From NCBI GenBank assembly GCA_023247285.1, contig JAHFGU010000086.1, positions 1 through 6,579 of the forward strand: a DNA stretch of 6,579 nt, in the 5' to 3' direction. Positions 1 to 6,579 of this stretch are shown in pieces (the stretch's first letter is position 1; each line of letters opens with the position of its first letter). This DNA is from Candidatus Omnitrophota bacterium (GTDB lineage: Bacteria > Omnitrophota > Koll11 > Aquiviventales > Aquiviventaceae). The notes under the pieces are model-generated. The model worked only from the letters and a program-made list of their open reading frames with translations, searched no databases and was not told where the DNA came from. Position numbers and translations under genes: made by a program.

Positions 1-588
1 CGCGCCCAGCAAGTCGCGATAGTCCATGCCGTGGCGCCAGGCCAGCTCATCGAGGCATGTGCAGCCTTCCATCGGCACATTGATGTGCAAGCGCTGCAAG
101 ACCGGCTTGGCGTCCGGGTAATACTGCACCAACCGGTTCAGAGTCGTCGTCTCATCGACCGCATGCTCGCCGGCCTGAGGAGCGGTGTGGACGCCGGCCG
201 CATGCTCCAGCATAGGAAACACCATGGTTTCCTCCTCTTCCATCTGATCGCGCAGGCTCCGGATGAGCGCCTGCAGCGTCGCTGCGACCTGAGGGTACGC
301 CGATTCGTTCGGGACTAAGAGGTGCTCACTGAGGGCGTGAAGCCGGAGCGGCTTTTCATGGTGCTCGGTCGCGAGCCGGAGCCGAAGCGGCAGGGCCAGG
401 AACGGGCGGCAGGCCTGCACCGCTTCTTCTTCCCGCTTGCTGTGCTCCTCGATCTGCCGGCAAAGGCTGACGCAGAGCTCCCCCAGCGCGAACCACGCCT
501 CCGGACCCGCGCGCAGCGCGTGCTCCATGGTGCCGAGCTTCGCGCGGAGCTGCGCGTGGTCGCCGCGCAGCTGCGCCATCATATCCAT
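1..588 (-). CDS. Hemerythrin-like protein with C-terminal ScdA_N/DUF1858-like domain (partial, 3' end beyond window)
   Basis: The first 196 residues are visible; the frame is open to the window edge. Residues 5-130 look like a hemerythrin-type four-helix bundle that would bind a di-iron centre: H11 in GDHAQLR, H49 and E53 in EEHSKREEE, H76/H77 in TEHHEKP, and E-rich EEEETMVFP at 117-125. The last helix normally begins H-x-x-E-E; here Q115 sits where the histidine is expected, so metal binding may be altered. Residues 147-196 resemble the small ScdA_N/DUF542 or DUF1858 domain (LNRLVQYYPDAKPVLQRL, then C176-T-C178), which in RIC/YtfE-type repair proteins sits at the N-terminus. The likely role is O2, NO or iron sensing or repair in the cytoplasm; this is inferred from family. 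The start at 588 follows a GAGAGG Shine-Dalgarno and overlaps the stop of a five-codon minigene. It lies 21 nt after regulator A, with its own predicted promoter inside that gene. Confidence 0.85.
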   Translation of the reverse strand, partial: MDMMAQLRGDHAQLRAKLGTMEHALRAGPEAWFALGELCVSLCRQIEEHSKREEEAVQACRPFLALPLRLRLATEHHEKPLRLHALSEHLLVPNESAYPQVAATLQALIRSLRDQMEEEETMVFPMLEHAAGVHTAPQAGEHAVDETTTLNRLVQYYPDAKPVLQRLHINVPMEGCTCLDELAWRHGMDYRDLLGA

Positions 589-605
589 CAGGCCCTCTCG
601 CTCAT
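588..605 (-). CDS. Five-codon leaderless minigene (MSERA) coupled to the hemerythrin gene
   Basis: ATG AGC GAG AGG GCC TGA. The stop codon shares one base with the hemerythrin ATG (TGATG). The A of this ATG lies 41.5 bp from the centre of the palindrome at 639-654 and 6 nt after a TACCGT hexamer, so a transcript from that promoter would start on the ATG itself. The GAGAGG codons double as the hemerythrin Shine-Dalgarno. It may serve as a ribosome loading site that couples translation into the hemerythrin frame. The peptide is inferred and could equally be a chance ATG. Confidence 0.35.
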   Translation of the reverse strand: MSERA

Positions 606-609
606 GGCG

Positions 610-1326
610 TCACGGTACGCCGTTGCCAGAGGCGCGTATATGACCGGTGTCATACACACGGGCGCCGCGGAGGGCCGCTTGCAGCCGCCTGGGCCGCAGG
701 ATGAGCAGCGAGCCGCGCGCGCCGGCCACGTCCCCGACCTGCTTCAGCATCCGGACGGCGCGGATCGCGCTCTCCGTGGTCGTCCAGGACATCTGGGCCA
801 GCTCCCGGTGCGTGACCGGGATGCGGTTGCCGAACTGCTCCCGCAGGCGCAGGATGGAGCGCACGAGGCGCACGCGCACCGGTTCGGCCACTGCACCATA
901 CTGCTGCGCCATATGCTGGAGGCGCCTGGCGCACAGCACCAGCGCCTCGTAGGCTAGGCCGGCATCCTCGCGCAGCGCGGCAGCGAACGCCTCGCGCGGG
1001 ATGCGCAGCACCCGGCACGCGGTGCCGGCCACAGCCCCCATCTGATACGCGCCGGACTCGAGCGCCGAAATGCCGCAGAGCGCCTCGCGCGGCGTGATCG
1101 TAAAGAGCACCGCGGAGTGCTGCGCGGCAGCCGTCGCGTGGGACGAACGCATGAGATGCACCCAACCCTCCAGCACCACCCAGACGGCCGTTGCCGGCTG
1201 GCCCTGCCGGAAGAGGACGGCCCCTTTGGCGTAGCGCTCGATGCGCGCCGTGGCGAGGACGCGATCACCCCACCGAGCGGACATATGGCGGAAAAGCGGA
1301 AGGTTGCGCACCGCGTGCGGAAGCAT
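610..1326 (-). CDS. CRP/FNR-family transcriptional regulator A
   Basis: This 238-residue protein has the CRP/FNR layout: a cyclic-nucleotide-binding-like beta-roll (about residues 8-120, with LPLFRHMS at the start, GAVLFRQG at 35-42 and VLEGWVHLMR at 51-60), a dimer helix around 122-145, and a winged helix at about 148-215. The recognition helix WTTTESAIRAVRML contains E185 and R189, which in CRP and FNR contact the TGA of the operator. The FNR N-terminal cysteine cluster is absent, so it is not an oxygen-labile 4Fe-4S FNR; the effector is unknown. Only ATG 1326 gives a normal N-terminus, and it has no Shine-Dalgarno. The predicted transcription start coincides with this ATG, so the message may be leaderless. 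Its last 15 or so residues (VYDTGHIRASGNGVP) are encoded over the next operator. The hemerythrin gene follows in the same direction. Confidence 0.88.
   Translation of the reverse strand: MLPHAVRNLPLFRHMSARWGDRVLATARIERYAKGAVLFRQGQPATAVWVVLEGWVHLMRSSHATAAAQHSAVLFTITPREALCGISALESGAYQMGAVAGTACRVLRIPREAFAAALREDAGLAYEALVLCARRLQHMAQQYGAVAEPVRVRLVRSILRLREQFGNRIPVTHRELAQMSWTTTESAIRAVRMLKQVGDVAGARGSLLILRPRRLQAALRGARVYDTGHIRASGNGVP
612..654 (-). promoter_or_regulatory. CRP/FNR-type operator and class II promoter of the hemerythrin gene
   Basis: Bases 639-654 form a perfect 6+6 inverted repeat with a 4-nt spacer, TATGAC-N4-GTCATA. On the minus strand a 21-nt spacer follows, then TACCGT (617 to 612). 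The centre of the palindrome lies 41.5 bp from position 605. This is the standard class II position for CRP/FNR activators. The operator is embedded in the last codons of regulator A, so the hemerythrin gene can be transcribed apart from the regulator. Confidence 0.6.
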
Positions 1327-1332
1327 GGCGCC

Positions 1333-1375
1333 ACGGTACGCGATCGCTTGGCGGCCATCTATGACGGCGATCAGA
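1333..1375 (-). promoter_or_regulatory. Degenerate CRP/FNR-type operator and promoter of regulator A
   Basis: On the minus strand, TCTGAT-N4-GTCATA (1375 to 1360) keeps one perfect half-site and a 4/6 match in the other. A 21-nt spacer follows, then TACCGT (1338 to 1333), then 6 nt and the ATG at 1326. The distances match the hemerythrin promoter to the base, and the block GCGTACCGTG(G/A)CGCCATG is shared with it. This suggests autoregulation or cross-regulation by a CRP/FNR protein. The weaker half-site makes it less certain than the other three. Confidence 0.45.
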
Positions 1376-1386
1376 AAGGACGGGCT

Positions 1387-1527
1387 CTAAATGGAGCCAT
1401 CTATGCATCTTCACATTCGGGGTGGTTCCATTGACCCCGAGCAAGCGCAGCGCGTCGAGGGGTTCCCCTTCGACTTCGCTCAGGGTCACTGCGCCTTATG
1501 TGAAGATGCAATTGTGGGCGCATTTAG
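1387..1527. repeat. MITE-like element 1: 30-bp imperfect inverted repeats around a REP-like core
   Basis: Bases 1387-1416 and 1498-1527 are inverted copies that align without gaps over 30 positions, with 23 identical, including 13 in a row (ATGTGAAGATGCA and its complement) and CATTTAG at the outer end. The interior holds the palindromic core CCCTTCGAC...GCTCAGGG at 1466-1485. No gene is seen inside. The right arm provides the TAA stop of regulator B (1526-1524); the left arm ends 12 nt before the operator of regulator A. It may be a small non-autonomous mobile element; no transposase is present. Confidence 0.55.
1466..1485. repeat. REP-like palindromic core
   Basis: CCCTTCGACTTCGCTCAGGG is an imperfect palindrome whose minus-strand reading contains GAGCGAAGTCGAAGG. 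The same GAGCG-n-AGTCGA-GG style recurs in the hairpin cluster at 5637-5666, which points to a dispersed genomic repeat family. GGGGTTCCCC directly precedes it. Confidence 0.45.
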
Positions 1528-2174
1528 GCGCGGGCCAGGTCGGCGAGCTGCTGGGGCTTGACGATCGTCGTGGCCCCGCGGGAGGACTTCACGATGCCCT
1601 GCTTCTTCAACTGACTGAGGACGCGGATCGTCGTCTCCACCGTCGTGCCGGCGAGCTCAGCCAGCTCGTGCTTGGTGAGCGGGACCGTGGGGCCGAACTT
1701 CTCGGCCAGCAGCACCAAGGCCTGGGCCAGGCGCCGCTCGACGGAGTCGTAGACCGCGCAGCTCTTGTCTTCGACGTGGCGCAGCCGGTCGCAAAACAGG
1801 CACAGCGACGCCTGCAGGAAGGCCGGATTCCGCTGCAGCAGCTCATGGAAGGCGTCGGCCTGGATGCGCACGACCACCGAGTCCTCGGCCGCGACCGCAT
1901 CGACCGGGTAGGGCTTGCGATCGAGCGCCGGCAGGCAGCAGAAGGTTTCCCCCGGGGCCATCACGCAGGTCGTCGAGGCGTGCCCGCTCTCCAGGAACTT
2001 CATGAGGTGCACGCGCCCGGTCTTGACCACGCAGACCGTGTCCGCCCGGTCGCCGGCGCGGAAGATGGTTTCGCCTTTGGCATAGGCCCGCTCGCGGGAT
2101 CGGGCGGCCAGGCGCTGCCGCTCCTCAGGGGTCAGGCGCTTGAACAAGTCGAGGTGCGCGAGGAATTGTTCCAT
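1524..2174 (-). CDS. CRP/FNR-family transcriptional regulator B
   Basis: This 216-residue protein has an N-terminal beta-roll sensor (about 5-115; YAKGETIFRAGD, VKTGRVHLMK at 50-59, APGETFCCLPAL at 73-84), a dimer helix near 117-140, and a winged helix at 145-212. The recognition helix GTTVETTIRVLSQLKKQG has E180 and R184 at the operator-contact positions. It carries several cysteines (C48, C70, C79, C80, C125, C128, C139) but no FNR-type N-terminal cluster; whether any sense redox is unknown. ATG 2174 is chosen because MEQFLAHLDLFKRL is a typical family N-terminus; the frame is open back to GTG 2348, but that extension would translate a terminator hairpin. No clear Shine-Dalgarno is seen. 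Upstream lie an operator, a long leader and a terminator, suggesting attenuation or a separate promoter. The stop codon lies in an inverted-repeat arm. Confidence 0.9.
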   Translation of the reverse strand: MEQFLAHLDLFKRLTPEERQRLAARSRERAYAKGETIFRAGDRADTVCVVKTGRVHLMKFLESGHASTTCVMAPGETFCCLPALDRKPYPVDAVAAEDSVVVRIQADAFHELLQRNPAFLQASLCLFCDRLRHVEDKSCAVYDSVERRLAQALVLLAEKFGPTVPLTKHELAELAGTTVETTIRVLSQLKKQGIVKSSRGATTIVKPQQLADLARA

Positions 2175-2188
2175 GGGCGGTCGCCCGT

Positions 2189-2197
2189 ATCTTACCA
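2189..2197 (-). promoter_or_regulatory. Possible extended -10 promoter of regulator B
   Basis: The minus strand reads TGGTAAGAT, a TGn extension plus a TAAGAT hexamer. It would start transcription near 2182, only about 8 nt before ATG 2174 and downstream of the intrinsic terminator. No good -35 box is visible. If used, regulator B would have basal expression independent of the operator at 2409-2424. Confidence 0.3.
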
Positions 2198-2221
2198 GAG
2201 CGCCGCCTGCCTCTGCAGCAC

Positions 2222-2276
2222 AAAAAACCCCTGGATCCGCACGCCGTGTCTTCATACGTCCCGGCGGATCCAGGGG
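2222..2276 (-). terminator. Strong intrinsic terminator in the leader of regulator B
   Basis: Arms 2264-2276 and 2228-2240 form a perfect 13-bp GC-rich stem (CCCCTGGATCCGC with its complement) around a 23-nt loop. On the minus strand it is followed at once by TTTTTT (2227-2222). There is no T tract on the plus-strand side, so it acts on leftward transcription. It could end the pckA operon, or act as an attenuator for transcripts starting near 2375. Confidence 0.8.
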
Positions 2277-2293
2277 GTCAACCCCAGGGCCAT
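2252..2293 (-). CDS. Possible leader peptide MALGLTPWIRRDV overlapping the terminator
   Basis: A 13-codon frame with a good Shine-Dalgarno (GGGAGGGA, 2307-2300) 6 nt before ATG 2293. Codons 6-10 run through the 5' arm of the terminator stem, and the TGA stop (2254-2252) lies in its loop, so a translating ribosome would hold the stem open. The ATG itself is the 3-nt loop of a 6-bp hairpin (CAGGGC-ATG-GCCCTG, 2285-2299), which could limit initiation. This is the arrangement expected of translation-coupled attenuation, but it rests on sequence only. Confidence 0.4.
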   Translation of the reverse strand: MALGLTPWIRRDV

Positions 2294-2381
2294 GCCCTGT
2301 CCCTCCCTGGTGGGGATCACGCGGGAGTCGCTTGCCAGGGCGGAGCACTCCTCCGCGCCTGCCGCTCCTGTTCCCGCTCTT

Positions 2382-2424
2382 AGTCTAGTCGAGCGCTGGT
2401 GCCGCGTGTATGACCAGCGTCATG
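2382..2424 (-). promoter_or_regulatory. CRP/FNR-type operator and class II promoter upstream of regulator B
   Basis: Bases 2409-2424 read TATGAC-N4-GTCATG, a 5/6 inverted repeat. On the minus strand a 21-nt spacer separates it from TAGACT (2387-2382), giving a predicted start near 2375, 41.5 bp from the centre. The spacing is identical to the promoters of regulator A and the hemerythrin gene. No ATG lies at the start here; a leader of about 200 nt precedes regulator B. Confidence 0.6.
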
Positions 2425-2435
2425 CGGCCTACGAT

Positions 2436-2452
2436 GCGCAGGGTCTCTGCGC
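2436..2452 (-). other. Short hairpin just after the DUF2934 gene
   Basis: GCGCAG-N5-CTGCGC forms a perfect 6-bp stem beginning 1 nt after the TGA of the DUF2934 gene. It lacks a T tract, so it could be an RNA 3'-end protector or a weak pause site rather than an intrinsic terminator. Confidence 0.3.
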
Positions 2453-2453
2453 G

Positions 2454-2651
2454 TCAACTCAGCAAGCGATTCCTCAGCGCGCGCGAGCGCACGATGCGCT
2501 CAGCTTCCAGCCAGTCCTCCACATCACGGCCGTCCTCGCGGCCTCGCTGCTCGTACAGGCTGTACGCCACGCGCGCGATATCCGACGCGCCAACGGTCGA
2601 CGCCCCATTCCCCGGCTGCTCAGCCTTCGCTCGCTTTACGGCAACGGCCAT
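2454..2651 (-). CDS. DUF2934 domain small protein
   Basis: This 65-residue protein carries the DUF2934 signature at about residues 24-52: DIARVAYSLYEQRGREDGRD followed by VEDWLEAER. The function of the family is unknown; the proteins are small, soluble and charged. The N-terminal 20 residues are basic and probably disordered. A strong GGAGG sits 8 nt before ATG 2651, inside the end of the winged-helix gene, which it overlaps by 16 bp, so the two are probably translationally coupled. It is the last gene of the pckA operon. Confidence 0.8.
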   Translation of the reverse strand: MAVAVKRAKAEQPGNGASTVGASDIARVAYSLYEQRGREDGRDVEDWLEAERIVRSRALRNRLLS

Positions 2652-2974
2652 GGTCCGCCCTCCTCGTCACGACCCGCCCCGACTGCATCCTCCGCCGACA
2701 CCGCGCTCATCGGCGCCCGCGCCTCCACCACAACCTCCAAGTCATGCCGGACCGCGCGGACCAGGCCTGCTCGCGTGAGCGCGCCGACGGCCATCATCAC
2801 CATCGGCGCCGGCCAATCCAGCTCGCGGATCAGCCGGCGCAGCGTCGTCGCCCCATGCCCCTCGAGGCGCGTCAGGATGTCGCCCTCGACCAGCCCCAAC
2901 GGGGTCATCAGCGACCGGGTCGTGTCCCGCGCCTCGAGGCGGTTCACCGGCCCGGTGGTGCCCTGGGGATCCAT
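2636..2974 (-). CDS. Small winged-helix domain protein
   Basis: This 112-residue protein has a predicted winged helix at about residues 24-85: GDILTRLEGHGATTLRRLIRELDWP gives the first helices, APMVMMAVGALTRAGLVRAV a recognition-type helix, and HDLEVVVEA a wing strand. It looks like small MarR-like or DUF2582-like winged-helix proteins; I cannot assign a named family. It may be a local DNA-binding regulator of carbon metabolism genes, which is inference. GGGAGG lies 6 nt before ATG 2974, the gene follows pckA by 23 nt, and it overlaps the DUF2934 gene. The C-terminal 25 residues are Gly/Pro/acidic and likely disordered. Confidence 0.75.
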   Translation of the reverse strand: MDPQGTTGPVNRLEARDTTRSLMTPLGLVEGDILTRLEGHGATTLRRLIRELDWPAPMVMMAVGALTRAGLVRAVRHDLEVVVEARAPMSAVSAEDAVGAGRDEEGGPWPLP

Positions 2975-2997
2975 CGCGTCCTCCCGCGTGGCGTCCG

Positions 2998-4629
2998 CTA
3001 AGCGGGCGCGTCCGTCGCGCCTGCGAATTGTGTGGCGTTGTCGCGGAACCTGGCGGCCAGCTCCGCCGCCTTGGCGTCATAGGCGGCCGGATCGGCCCAG
3101 GTCGATCGGGGATCGAGCAGCCGCTCCGGCACGCCCGGGCACCGGGTGATGGCGGAGAGCTGGAAAACCGGATCCGGCGTGGCGGGGGCTTCGGTCAAGG
3201 CGCCGCTGAGCGCCGCGTTGATCATGGCGCGCGTCTGGCCGATCGGGATCCGCCGGCCGACGCCGTACGGGCCGCCGGTCCAACCGGTGTTGATGAGCCA
3301 GCAGGCCGCGCGGTGCGCGGTGATCTTCTCGGTCAGCAGATCCGCGTACACCCGGGGGCGCAGCGCCATGAAGGGCGCGCCGAAGCACGCGCTGAACGTG
3401 GCCTTCGGCTCGACGATGCCCAGCTCGGTGCCCGCCACCTTCGCCGTGTAGCCGGAGAGGAAGTGGTGCCGCGCCTGCTCGGGCGAGAGCCGCGCGACCG
3501 GCGGCAGCACGCCGAAGGCGTCGCAGGTCAGCATGACGATGTTCGCCGGATGACCCGCCGCGCGGGTGGGGCTGGCGTTGGGAATGCCGTCGAGCGGATA
3601 GGCGCCGCGCGTGTTCTCGGTGAGGGTATCGTCGTCCAGGTCGAGCGCGCGGGTGGCCGGATCGATGGCCACATTCTCGAGGACGGTGCCGAAGCGCCGC
3701 GTCGTCGCGAAAATTTCCGGCTCGGCCTGCGGCGAGAGCCGGATCATCTTCGCGTAGCAGCCGTTTTCGAAATTGAACACCCCGCGGTCGCTCCAGCCGT
3801 GCTCGTCGTCGCCGATGAGCGTGCGCCGGGGGTCGGCGGAGAGCGAGGTCTTCCCGGTCCCGGAGAGCCCGAAGAAGAGGGCCGCGTCCCCTTTCGGGCC
3901 GACGTTGGCGGCGCAATGCATGGAGAGCACGCCCCTGAGCGGCAGCAGGTAGTTCATGATCGTGAACACCGACTTTTTAATCTCGCCGGCGTAGCTGGTG
4001 CCGCCGATGAGGACGAGCCTGCGGCCGAAGTCCATGAGGATGAAGGTGCCTGAGCGCGTGCCGTCCCGCTTGGGCTCGGCCTGGAAGAGCGGCGCGTGCA
4101 GCATCGTGAACTCCGGCCGGAATACCCTGCCGTCATCCGCCGCCGCCGGGAGCGCAGGGAGGAACATGGTGCGCGCGAAGAGGCTGTGCCAGGCGGTCTC
4201 GGTGATCACCCGGATGGGGTGCTGATACGCCGGATCGGCGCCGACGAGACAATCCTGGACATAGCGCGCCTTGCTCTGGAGGTAGGCCAGCACCCGCCGG
4301 TGCAGCCGCTCGAAGCGCTGCGGATCAAACGGCCGGTTGACCGCGCCCCACCAGATGTGGTTGGCGCTGGACGGCTCGCGCACGATGAATTTGTCGCCCG
4401 GGGAGCGGCCGGTGTGGCGCCCGGTCCGCACGACCAGCGGGCCGCCGGAGGCGAGCAGCCCTTCCCCCCGATGGATCGCGTGCTCATACAGGGCGGCGAC
4501 GCCGAGGCGCCGATGGATCTGCGACGAAGGCCGGGCGGGGGATTGCGCGGAGACGGATAGCGCGCGGCGCGCAGATGCGGGACGTCGCGGCAGTATGCGC
4601 GGGCGTTTCATTGGGAGGCCTGGTGGCAT
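2998..4629 (-). CDS. pckA: Phosphoenolpyruvate carboxykinase (ATP)
   Basis: PckA (EC 4.1.1.49) interconverts oxaloacetate plus ATP with phosphoenolpyruvate, CO2 and ADP, the first committed step of gluconeogenesis or an anaplerotic route. Counting from ATG 4629 (543 residues; the family is about 530-540), it shows R75 in TGRSPGDKF, Y213 and K218/K219 in TSYAGEIKKS, H238 in LSMHCAANVG, the P-loop GLSGTGKTS at 254-262, the metal-binding LIGDDEHGW with D274/D275, and R341 in ENTRGAYPLD. All substrate, metal and nucleotide residues I can check are present. The frame is open to 4752, but that would overlap sufT and the promoter. ATG 4629 lies within 1 nt of the predicted transcription start; ATG 4611 (MKRPRILPRR, 537 residues) is the alternative, with only a weak AGG upstream. 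It heads an operon with the winged-helix and DUF2934 genes and has a CRP/FNR-type operator in front. Confidence 0.95.
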   Translation of the reverse strand: MPPGLPMKRPRILPRRPASARRALSVSAQSPARPSSQIHRRLGVAALYEHAIHRGEGLLASGGPLVVRTGRHTGRSPGDKFIVREPSSANHIWWGAVNRPFDPQRFERLHRRVLAYLQSKARYVQDCLVGADPAYQHPIRVITETAWHSLFARTMFLPALPAAADDGRVFRPEFTMLHAPLFQAEPKRDGTRSGTFILMDFGRRLVLIGGTSYAGEIKKSVFTIMNYLLPLRGVLSMHCAANVGPKGDAALFFGLSGTGKTSLSADPRRTLIGDDEHGWSDRGVFNFENGCYAKMIRLSPQAEPEIFATTRRFGTVLENVAIDPATRALDLDDDTLTENTRGAYPLDGIPNASPTRAAGHPANIVMLTCDAFGVLPPVARLSPEQARHHFLSGYTAKVAGTELGIVEPKATFSACFGAPFMALRPRVYADLLTEKITAHRAACWLINTGWTGGPYGVGRRIPIGQTRAMINAALSGALTEAPATPDPVFQLSAITRCPGVPERLLDPRSTWADPAAYDAKAAELAARFRDNATQFAGATDAPA

Positions 4630-4633
4630 CCCT

Positions 4634-4677
4634 ACTCTAGGACACCCGGCGCTTCCATATCTATGATGTCCGTCATA
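4634..4677 (-). promoter_or_regulatory. CRP/FNR-type operator and class II promoter of pckA
   Basis: Bases 4662-4677 read TATGAT-N4-GTCATA, a 5/6 inverted repeat. On the minus strand a 22-nt spacer leads to TAGAGT (4639-4634). A start 41.5 bp from the centre falls at 4628, within the ATG at 4629-4627. The site lies between sufT and pckA, so pckA is probably transcribed separately from the suf genes under control of a CRP/FNR-family protein, plausibly one of the two encoded nearby. Confidence 0.6.
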
Positions 4678-4705
4678 CCCAGAACCCTGGAAGACGCCGG
4701 CCCGG

Positions 4706-5071
4706 CTACCGCTCCTGCTCAGGGTTTGCGCCGCCGGCAGGATCACTCTCATCCCAGCCTAAGCCCAGCGCGATCTTGCAGTCCTCAGAGGCCATCGTGC
4801 GCGGGTCCCACGGCGGGGTGAACACGATGTTCACCGCGGCCTGCTTCACGCCAGGCAGCGTCGCCAGCGCCCGCTGCACTTGCGCCCTCAACTGCGGGCC
4901 GTACGGGCAGAAGGGCGAGGTGAACGTCATGGTCAGCTTGACCTCGTCTCCATCAGGGTGCGGGTTGATGTCGGCGCCGTAGATGAGCCCCAGATCCACG
5001 ATGCCCAGATGGAGCTCCGGGTCCTCGATGGGTTTGAGCGCCCCGAGCACCTGCTCCTCAGTGACGGCCAT
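4706..5071 (-). CDS. sufT: SufT-like MIP18-family (DUF59) iron-sulfur assembly protein
   Basis: This 121-residue protein has the MIP18/DUF59 hallmarks: EDPEL at 16-20, VDLGLIYG at 25-32, TSPFCPYGPQ at 51-60 with the conserved C55, and TPPWDP at 85-90. Family members such as SufT help mature Fe-S proteins, and the neighbouring sufU supports that role over the related phenylacetate-pathway PaaD. The start at 5071 is chosen over ATG 5077 because AGGAG is 7 nt before 5071 but only 1 nt before 5077. It overlaps the end of sufU by 14 bp, implying coupling. The C-terminal 20 residues are Gly/Glu-rich, with an extra C98. Confidence 0.88.
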   Translation of the reverse strand: MAVTEEQVLGALKPIEDPELHLGIVDLGLIYGADINPHPDGDEVKLTMTFTSPFCPYGPQLRAQVQRALATLPGVKQAAVNIVFTPPWDPRTMASEDCKIALGLGWDESDPAGGANPEQER

Positions 5072-5501
5072 TGGCATGCTCCTGTAGGCCTTGCTCCACC
5101 ACGTTCCATGAGAGGGCCGCGCACTTGACGCGCACCGGGAACTTCCGCACCCCGGCGAGGGCCTCGAGATCGCCGAGCTCCACGCCGGCCGCCGGCGCCT
5201 GCCCCTGCATCAACCCCTTCATGGCCTCGATGAGCCGCTGGACCTCCGGCACCGGCTTGCCTTCGATTTCCGCGGCCAGCATGGACGCGGCCGCCTGGCT
5301 GATCGCGCAGCCTTTGCCAGAGAACCGCACCTGCCTGATGCGCGCTCCGTCGAAGATGAAATCATACGCCAGCTCATCCCCGCAGAGCGGGTTGGCGCCG
5401 GTCACATGCACCTGCGGCGCCGGCAAGATCCCGCTGTGGCTCGGGTGCTTGAAGTGCTCCAGGATCACGTCGCGATACAGCTCGTCCAGCTGGTCGAACA
5501 T
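5058..5501 (-). CDS. sufU: SufU-type iron-sulfur scaffold / sulfur acceptor
   Basis: This 147-residue protein accepts persulfide sulfur from SufS; in Gram-positive-type SUF systems SufU is a zinc-dependent sulfurtransferase. It has C40 and D42 in NPLCGDE, C65 in GKGCAISQAAASM and C127 in RVKCAALSW, the full Cys/Asp set, and the inter-motif stretch at 84-118 longer than in IscU, which marks SufU. The start at ATG 5501 (MFDQLDELYRDVILEHF) matches the family N-terminus; an upstream ATG at 5525 would read into an inverted repeat. The GGGGTG before the start lies within the left inverted-repeat arm, so the element supplies the ribosome-binding region. It overlaps sufT downstream and is separated from sufS by the membrane gene and the repeat element. 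Confidence 0.93.
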   Translation of the reverse strand: MFDQLDELYRDVILEHFKHPSHSGILPAPQVHVTGANPLCGDELAYDFIFDGARIRQVRFSGKGCAISQAAASMLAAEIEGKPVPEVQRLIEAMKGLMQGQAPAAGVELGDLEALAGVRKFPVRVKCAALSWNVVEQGLQEHANGRH

Positions 5502-5502
5502 T

Positions 5503-5847
5503 AGAGCACCCCACAGCATGCCCACATGGCCGCGCTGGACCGAGCCGCGAGCCGCGCCAGGCGCGAGAAGGACGGCGTAGCCGAAGGAGCGCTACGCCGA
5601 CGACGAGCAACGCCGTCCTTCGGCTGACGCTCAGGACGGCGTCCCGAGCGGAGTCGAGGGACGCCGCGCGGCGACGCGGATCGGCCCAGCCTATGGATGA
5701 ACTCGGGGTTGCGGCGGCGGGCGGCCATCTCCGGCGTCGCTCCTCCTCGCCGTATCGCTACATGCTGATACGTCATCGTCGTCGCTTCTTGGAGTTGGCC
5801 GCCTGGCGCGCGCAACGCGACTCTGTGGGCATGCTGTGGGGTGCTCT
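5503..5847. mobile_element. MITE-like element 2: perfect 24-bp inverted repeats, no transposase
   Basis: Bases 5503-5526 and 5824-5847 are perfect 24-bp inverted copies (AGAGCACCCCACAGCATGCC plus CACA, and its complement). The 297 bp between them contain three adjacent hairpins (5573-5599, 5611-5641, 5637-5666) and no credible gene. This is the only stretch over 300 bp without a gene. The left arm abuts the sufU start and includes its ribosome-binding region; the right arm gives the last base of the TAA stop of the membrane protein. The arms could instead form a long mRNA stem within the suf transcript. Nothing encodes a transposase, so any mobility would depend on another locus. Confidence 0.55.
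5573..5666. repeat. Cluster of three REP-like hairpins
   Basis: Three back-to-back palindromes: CGGCGTAGC/GCTACGCCG (5573-5599, 9-bp stem), CGCCGTCCT/AGGACGGCG (5611-5641, 9-bp stem) and CGGCGTCCC/GGGACGCCG (5637-5666, 9-bp stem, sharing 5 bases with the previous one). The third has GAGCGGAGTCGA in its loop, like the core at 1466-1485. They resemble dispersed REP-type repeats and could act as RNA structure or transposition sites. Confidence 0.6.
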
Positions 5848-6068
5848 TAGGGCGCCCAGAACCGCTTCCAGTGCTTCGCCTTGACCGTCAGGCTCATCAG
5901 CATGCCGAGCAGGATCATCCATCCGCCGGTCCGCGCCGGGCAGCCGCCGGCTGCCGCGAGCAGCCCCAGCCCGAAGGCGGCGAGCATTTTTCCGCCCGCA
6001 TCCATCGCGAGATCGCTGAGCGTGACATGCGCGCGGATCCTGTTCCAGCGTTCGCTGAGGCTCGGCAT
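5847..6068 (-). CDS. Small two-helix membrane protein of unknown function
   Basis: This 73-residue protein is not a family I recognise. It has an amphipathic N-terminus (MPSLSERWNRIRAHVTLSDL), a hydrophobic segment at about 27-42 (KMLAAFGLGLLAAAGG), a short CPART turn, and a second segment at about 48-63 (GGWMILLGMLMSLTVKA), ending in a basic-aromatic tail (KHWKRFW). The charge pattern suggests both ends are cytoplasmic. ATG 6068 begins 2 nt after the sufS stop, with GGGA about 9 nt upstream, so it is co-transcribed with sufS. Its TAA stop uses the end of an inverted-repeat arm. A role with SufS is only suggested by position. Confidence 0.65.
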   Translation of the reverse strand: MPSLSERWNRIRAHVTLSDLAMDAGGKMLAAFGLGLLAAAGGCPARTGGWMILLGMLMSLTVKAKHWKRFWAP

Positions 6069-6070
6069 GG

Positions 6071-6579
<509 letters not shown>

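Follow-up and report, generated by a model that had tools for sequence, protein, structure and literature searches.

A conserved TATGA-type operator and the putative redox regulon of an apparently undescribed Crp/Fnr subfamily in Omnitrophota

The 6,579-nt contig JAHFGU010000086.1 of a Candidatus Omnitrophota bacterium (assembly GCA_023247285.1, positions 1–6,579; subsequently called the window) carries genes for two Crp/Fnr-type regulators, named A and B here, together with four copies of a palindrome of the form TATGAC-N4-GTCATA. Comparison with related genomes indicates that the palindrome is genuine and conserved, that its layout fits a class II operator, and that it would define a small redox regulon belonging to a Crp/Fnr subfamily which has apparently not been described before. 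Most probably it is the site of a class II Crp/Fnr activator, namely regulator B or its orthologue, which would run a small set of redox and respiratory genes. In open-licence PubMed Central, judged from titles and the beginnings of abstracts, no description of the operator or of an Omnitrophota regulon was found, and a term search of PMC12531629 returned neither Omnitroph nor TATGA.

The operator and its distance to the promoter

The four palindromes lie on the minus strand at 639–654 (TATGACACCGGTCATA, upstream of the hemerythrin gene), 1360–1375 (TCTGATCGCCGTCATA, upstream of regulator A), 2409–2424 (CATGACGCTGGTCATA) and 4662–4677 (TATGACGGACATCATA, upstream of the phosphoenolpyruvate carboxykinase (PEPCK) gene pckA), with 0, 2, 1 and 1 mismatches to TATGAC-N4-GTCATA, respectively. 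Each is followed on the same strand, after 21, 21, 21 and 22 nt, by a −10-like TANNNT hexamer: TACCGT (612–617), TACCGT (1333–1338), TAGACT (2382–2387) and TAGAGT (4634–4639). Positions and spacings are those given by an earlier, sequence-only reading of this DNA. Within the window itself the excess of sites is modest: at ≤3 mismatches 4 matches were found against a mean of 0.51 in 200 shuffles, 1 of which also reached 4. Such a count, the small size of the window and the 2 mismatches in one of the four sites could suggest that the palindromes arose by chance or from the GC-rich composition of the window.

This explanation was rejected by the enrichment and the constant spacing of the motif in relatives, and we regard its probability as negligible. 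The comparison set of 28 sequences comprised the window and 27 related loci, L002 being left out as a near-copy of L001. In this set the exact motif TATGA-N6-TCATA occurred 28 times, compared with 0, 0 and 0 occurrences in three Markov shuffles, and at ≤1 mismatch it occurred 59 times, compared with 6, 6 and 3. The operator is therefore shared across related loci, as had been proposed for the four copies. The strongest single result is the fixed promoter distance of the motif: among 118 site-orientations the hexamer TANNNT stood at offset 21 in 46 and at offset 22 in 8, with at most 3 occurrences at every other offset from 0 to 49. Because TANNNT is concentrated at these two offsets, the motif is tied to a promoter. 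The operator centre precedes the −10 element by 29.5 or 30.5 bp and overlies the −35 region. In the layout known for class II activators the site is centred ∼41.5 bp upstream of the transcription start and overlaps the −35 region, and the constant spacing would fit this geometry, which the sequence-only reading had suggested. Palindromic operators near promoters can also serve repressors, and several Crp/Fnr proteins are able to repress. However, a repressor would not need a constant spacing, and the fixed position of the centre over the −35 region makes it very improbable that the operator serves a repressor instead of an activator.

A genome-wide scan was carried out in 25 genomes carrying B. 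The pattern ATGA-N6-TCATA-N21/22-TANNNT gave 36 matches in 11 genomes and 35 in 14 more, 71 in total, against 1 match of the reversed control. It is present in 24 of the 25 genomes, with a maximum of 7 per genome. A relaxed pattern (freer left half, spacing 21), applied to 16 of the genomes, gave 53 matches against 0 in the control and had at least one match in 15. Contrary to the earlier proposal of a local regulon, the sites thus form a small genome-wide set conserved across an Omnitrophota lineage.

The consensus was derived from 95 sites chosen on TGA...TCATA and a −10 element (L002 dropped), so that the promoter-proximal half-site is set by selection and its invariance is no evidence. With its free positions the consensus reads T/C-A-TGA-C/T-N4-G/A-TCATA-GA. 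Position 2, the third base in published numbering, is A in 70 of the 95 sites, position 6 is C/T in 89, position 11 is G/A in 88, and TCATA is followed by G in 66 and then by A in 71. The −10 element follows after 21 nt in 76 sites and after 22 nt in 19. With G as the third base in 6 sites and T in 3, the operator corresponds neither to the CRP box TGTGA-N6-TCACA nor to the FNR/DNR box TTGAT-N4-ATCAA, in agreement with the earlier assessment.

In a sample of 193 genomes of the phylum, chosen independently of B, the strict pattern was present in 110 genomes when YR was not required, and matches of the reversed control were also numerous. The YR-extended pattern gave 55 matches in total. Six genomes match the B model at E <1e-40, and 5 of them together accounted for 15 matches, with 0 in the control (G001 6, G009 4, G007 2, G022 2, G011 1 and G148 none). 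The remaining 40 were spread over 36 of the other 187 genomes, where all 21 reversed-control matches were found as well. At a threshold of E 1e-15 the B model matched 14 of the 193 genomes, the eight beyond the six having E-values of 2.4e-24 or weaker.

Some sites have a more elaborate arrangement. Single operators with a −10 element on either side, apparently divergent promoters, were observed at L006 9473–9488, L015 4796–4811 and G023:C94:22606-22675. In L007 two full operator–promoter units (10658 and 10819), 161 bp apart, precede one hemerythrin gene.

Genes following the operator

Target genes were assigned by BLAST to the window proteins, BLAST clustering, Pfam (50 of the 53 listed open reading frames (ORFs)) and NCBIfam (ten), and labels were given by hand; counts cover 26 sets, i.e. 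the 25 genomes and the window. Hemerythrin, already proposed as a regulon member, is operator-linked in 13 sets and regulator A follows a site in 12. PEPCK was found in 7 sets (six of ATP-type including the window, one of GTP-type in G019), as were AhbC/NirJ-like radical S-adenosylmethionine enzymes, two of which scored 484–508 bits with NCBIfam against the NirJ1 cut-off of 650. A cysteine desulfurase gene and a small helix-turn-helix (HTH) gene followed by cytochrome c were each present in three sets. Two sets each contained a nitrite/sulfite-type (NIR/SIR) reductase, VIT1, a MarR-like protein, a GGDEF protein, an acyl-CoA ligase, a 2-oxoacid:ferredoxin oxidoreductase, MoaA and YtxH, and FeoB had two entries. 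HemA, a DsrO/NrfC-like ferredoxin, COX2, a multihaem cytochrome, GltD and Rrf2 are among the targets seen once. Clustering also placed a HemA-like gene downstream of hemerythrin in L007, L011 and L014. Judged from these labels, the putative targets centre on redox, respiration, haem, Fe-S and iron, to which PEPCK adds a link with metabolism.

The suggested control of gluconeogenesis is supported in a part of the genomes: a site precedes the gene in 5 of 9 genomes with a full-length ATP-type PEPCK, and in G019, which has no ATP-type match, the GTP-type enzyme stands under the same operator. Such a link is not universal.

A protein of 70–76 aa is the first gene past the operator in L032, L033 and L040 (near 1554–1557) and in L034 (near 1489, minus strand). 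Pfam identified an HTH in the L032 protein, the others were assigned by clustering, and cytochrome c or AhbC/NirJ-like genes follow.

Which regulator reads the operator

Regulators A (610–1326, minus strand) and B (1524–2174, minus strand) both combine a cNMP_binding beta-roll with a Crp-type HTH and match Crp/Fnr chains, as does the AlphaFold model of B; their assignment to the Crp/Fnr superfamily in the sequence-only reading is borne out. The best NCBIfam models for both are FtrB/FnrL, yet with 51–59 bits against cut-offs of 211–300 they are not members of these families. The recognition helices read TTTESAIR in A and TTVETTIR in B, and their E and R are invariant in the aligned B (28) and A (27) sequences. 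The residue equivalent to position 180 is V, H or Q in B and T, L, W, I or V in A. According to a published specificity comparison (PMC1274295), R180 pairs with G3 and E181 with A6. The operator has A6 but no G3, and A and B have the E but no R180. This fits the rule, of which operator and protein would be a consistent third variant, A3.

Eight of 26 genomes contain B and operator sites while A was not detected at E 1e-20, although metagenome-assembled genomes (MAGs) may be incomplete and an undetected A is no proof of absence, which is one of the points to be weighed below. These genomes (G003, G004, G005, G016, G018, G021, G023 and G024) carry 3, 2, 3, 5, 4, 2, 5 and 1 sites, respectively, and the A-model search at this threshold yielded one protein in each, at the place of B. 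G011, with a distant B and one site, and G148 likewise gave a single A-model match. Among the 193 phylum genomes no clear A without B was found; G088 and G128 had weak A-model matches only (E 5.8e-17 and 3.3e-18). Because sites persist in eight genomes without a detected A and no clear A occurs without B, B is the economical choice and appears likelier than A as the cognate factor. Alternatively, A might be the main protein at the sites, alone or with B, so that the two share or compete for one operator. The similar recognition helix of A, with its invariant E and R and IR at the end, and the frequent position of A behind the operator agree with this. With the sites kept in the absence of a detectable A, and with position 180 varying over T, L, W, I and V, we consider a leading role of A rather unlikely.

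Several observations weigh against an operator read by B, in addition to the possible incompleteness of MAGs. The 25 genomes were selected via B, so that co-occurrence of B and the site is built in, and the unbiased sample of 193 contains only 6 B genomes. In G017 the strict pattern has 0 matches and only relaxed patterns were found. G148 (L184) encodes a clear B of identical helix core, yet no convincing site was found in this genome; allowing one mismatch rescued 5 matches against 1 in the control, and in all 5 the mismatch affects TCATA (1) or the −10 element (4). Furthermore, 13 of the 95 sites have no assigned target, and a full-length ATP-type PEPCK lacks an upstream site in 4 of 9 genomes.

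In the mechanism that we propose for B, a dimer would read both TGA half-sites via the equivalents of Glu181 and Arg185 (E180 and R184 in B). The operator TATGA(C/T)-N4-(G/A)TCATA would be centred ∼41 bp upstream of the predicted start, covering the −35 region, with TANNNT serving as the −10 element. From there B would activate hemerythrin, A, PEPCK, haem/siroheme-type enzymes, cytochromes and genes for Fe-S, molybdenum cofactor and iron transport. Regulator A would be a member of the regulon and might itself recognize this site or one like it, extending the circuit.

Self-control of the regulators had also been suggested; A is a well-supported target of the operator, but self-control of B is not supported. 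The site at 2409–2424 precedes B by position, 235 bp ahead and oriented toward it, though probably not by control. An intrinsic terminator (2222–2276, minus strand), whose hairpin stem has as many as 13 perfect pairs and is followed by TTTTTT, lies in between and ends ∼47 nt before the B start; the leader has a predicted fold of −80.5 kcal/mol (z −2.6). By eye, TAAGAT (2189–2194, minus strand), beginning 20 nt ahead of the B start, is a possible −10 element of B itself. Among 26 other loci only L006 has a forward site with −10 element (≤2 mismatches, within 700 bp) ahead of B, at a distance of 528 bp; the upstream sequence available in L004 and L013 is <700 bp. L005 has a forward site at 3 mismatches, and in L023, L025 and L027 a site near B points in the opposite direction. 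Because the terminator intervenes and a forward site is so rare, autoregulation of B is doubtful. It is more likely that the site at 2409–2424 drives an RNA of ∼155 nt, or B only via read-through.

The class II promoter and the strong terminator delimit this predicted RNA to 2375–2222 on the minus strand, with a possible 13-codon ORF seen by eye. Rfam gave no family above cut-off; the two matches at E ≤1 were both below their gathering scores, and the better one, NsiR1 (2220–2292, minus strand, E 0.21), overlies the terminator hairpin and was judged to be chance. A simple promoter/terminator scan that allowed only loops of 3–8 missed both the class II promoters and the terminator.

The promoter of A has a different peculiarity. 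In the window 6 nt separate the −10 hexamer from the ATG of A, and in 8 of 12 promoters (L003, L005, L008, L010, L014, L019, L021 and the window) this distance is 6–9 nt. Because the ATG follows so closely, the arrangement suggests a conserved, probably leaderless mRNA of regulator A.

Related systems, sensor pocket and gene context

PMC1274295 describes the HcpR1 regulon of delta-proteobacteria, which has the same TGAC-N4-GTCA core, a non-R residue at position 180 and hemerythrin-, cytochrome c- and ferredoxin-like targets as found here. In contrast, the third base is T for HcpR1 and A here, and the present targets include PEPCK, HemA, AhbC/NirJ-like enzymes and regulator A. We rejected hcp as a regulon target, as PF03063 was not found in any of the 25 genomes, in a search whose control was positive in 5 of 14 known genomes and with MAGs that may be incomplete.

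FNR/DNR (TTGATnnnnATCAA) share the Crp/Fnr fold, the predicted class II layout and redox/respiratory targets with the present system, and the FNR recognition helix has TVET as in B. Their half-site, however, is TTGAT instead of TATGA, and the first cysteine of B is residue 48, so that the cysteines of the N-terminal, oxygen-labile FNR [4Fe-4S] cluster are missing. The operators might still belong to an HcpR, DNR or FNR regulon with a slightly drifted box, since the highest NCBIfam scores of B are those with FnrL- and FixK-type models, albeit far under the cut-off. The missing hcp, the predominance of A over T at the third base and the lack of early cysteines render this improbable. CRP has the N6 spacing, the TGA...TCA core, the E181/R185 equivalents and the predicted class II geometry in common with the system of B but differs in G3, replaced by A here, and in R180, replaced by V/H/Q in B.

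In CRP the cassette residues G-E and R-S bind cAMP. They are replaced in both regulators: in the alignment to 4ev0 (FGE..RS), B has FCCLP for FGEMS and YP for RS, and A has LCGIS and YQ. An alignment of 28 homologues, B among them, shows six invariant cysteines (C70, C79, C80, C125, C128 and C139). The C-x8-CC trio is kept in 29 of 29 sequences (L001–L027, L184 and the window), each of which also retains C125, C128 or both; L001–L027 were found via peptide patterns with FCC and TTC, which biases the trio, and this does not apply to the 28 aligned homologues and G148 (L184). By comparison with 4ev0, C79–C80 occupy what was the cAMP cassette, and C125/C128 belong to the long C helix. Haem or NO/CO sensing is the mark of DNR, HcpR and CooA. 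In a fold comparison the model of B (mean predicted local distance difference test score 81, predicted template modelling score 0.57, residues 132–142 below 50 in the former) resembled Crp/Fnr and cNMP-domain relatives and indicated no ligand. From these residues we infer a metal or redox sensor in B. Going further, we tentatively propose that B founds a new Omnitrophota Crp/Fnr subfamily, in which a cysteine pocket (C70, C79–C80, C125 and/or C128) would hold a metal, Fe-S or haem/nitric oxide/redox sensor and the new half-site TATGA would make respiratory, haem and gluconeogenic genes responsive to the redox state.

The minus strand of the contig encodes SufS (cut), a 73-aa protein, SufU, a SufT/DUF59-like protein, pckA, a MarR-like protein, a DUF2934 protein, regulators B and A, and hemerythrin. 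The ATP-type PEPCK gene pckA (2998–4611; PF01293, E 1.1e-209) is followed downstream by the genes for the small MarR-like protein (2636–2974; PF12802, 25.1 bits, slightly below the 27-bit cut-off), homologues of which lie downstream of an operator site in 2 relatives, and the DUF2934 protein (2454–2651; PF11154, E 4.3e-13). The hemerythrin HHE gene (1–588; PF01814, E 1.2e-9) is truncated by the contig end. Intergenic segments at 1450–1490 and 5560–5665 contain related inverted-repeat words of the TTCGACTTCGCTCAGGG type, which by eye resemble a dispersed repeat. Organism-named homologues of A and B belong to Candidatus Omnitrophica, and 26 of 28 reference-genome loci bear an Omnitrophota or Omnitrophica title; L015 is titled Planctomycetales and L026 Chlamydiae.

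The Omnitrophota form a large phylum with hardly any cultured members, for which the operator and B would provide a testable regulator–operator pair with a candidate cysteine-lined sensor pocket. The list of putative targets hints at a respiratory lifestyle, and the choice of A3 would add a third base to the Crp/Fnr specificity rule of PMC1274295.

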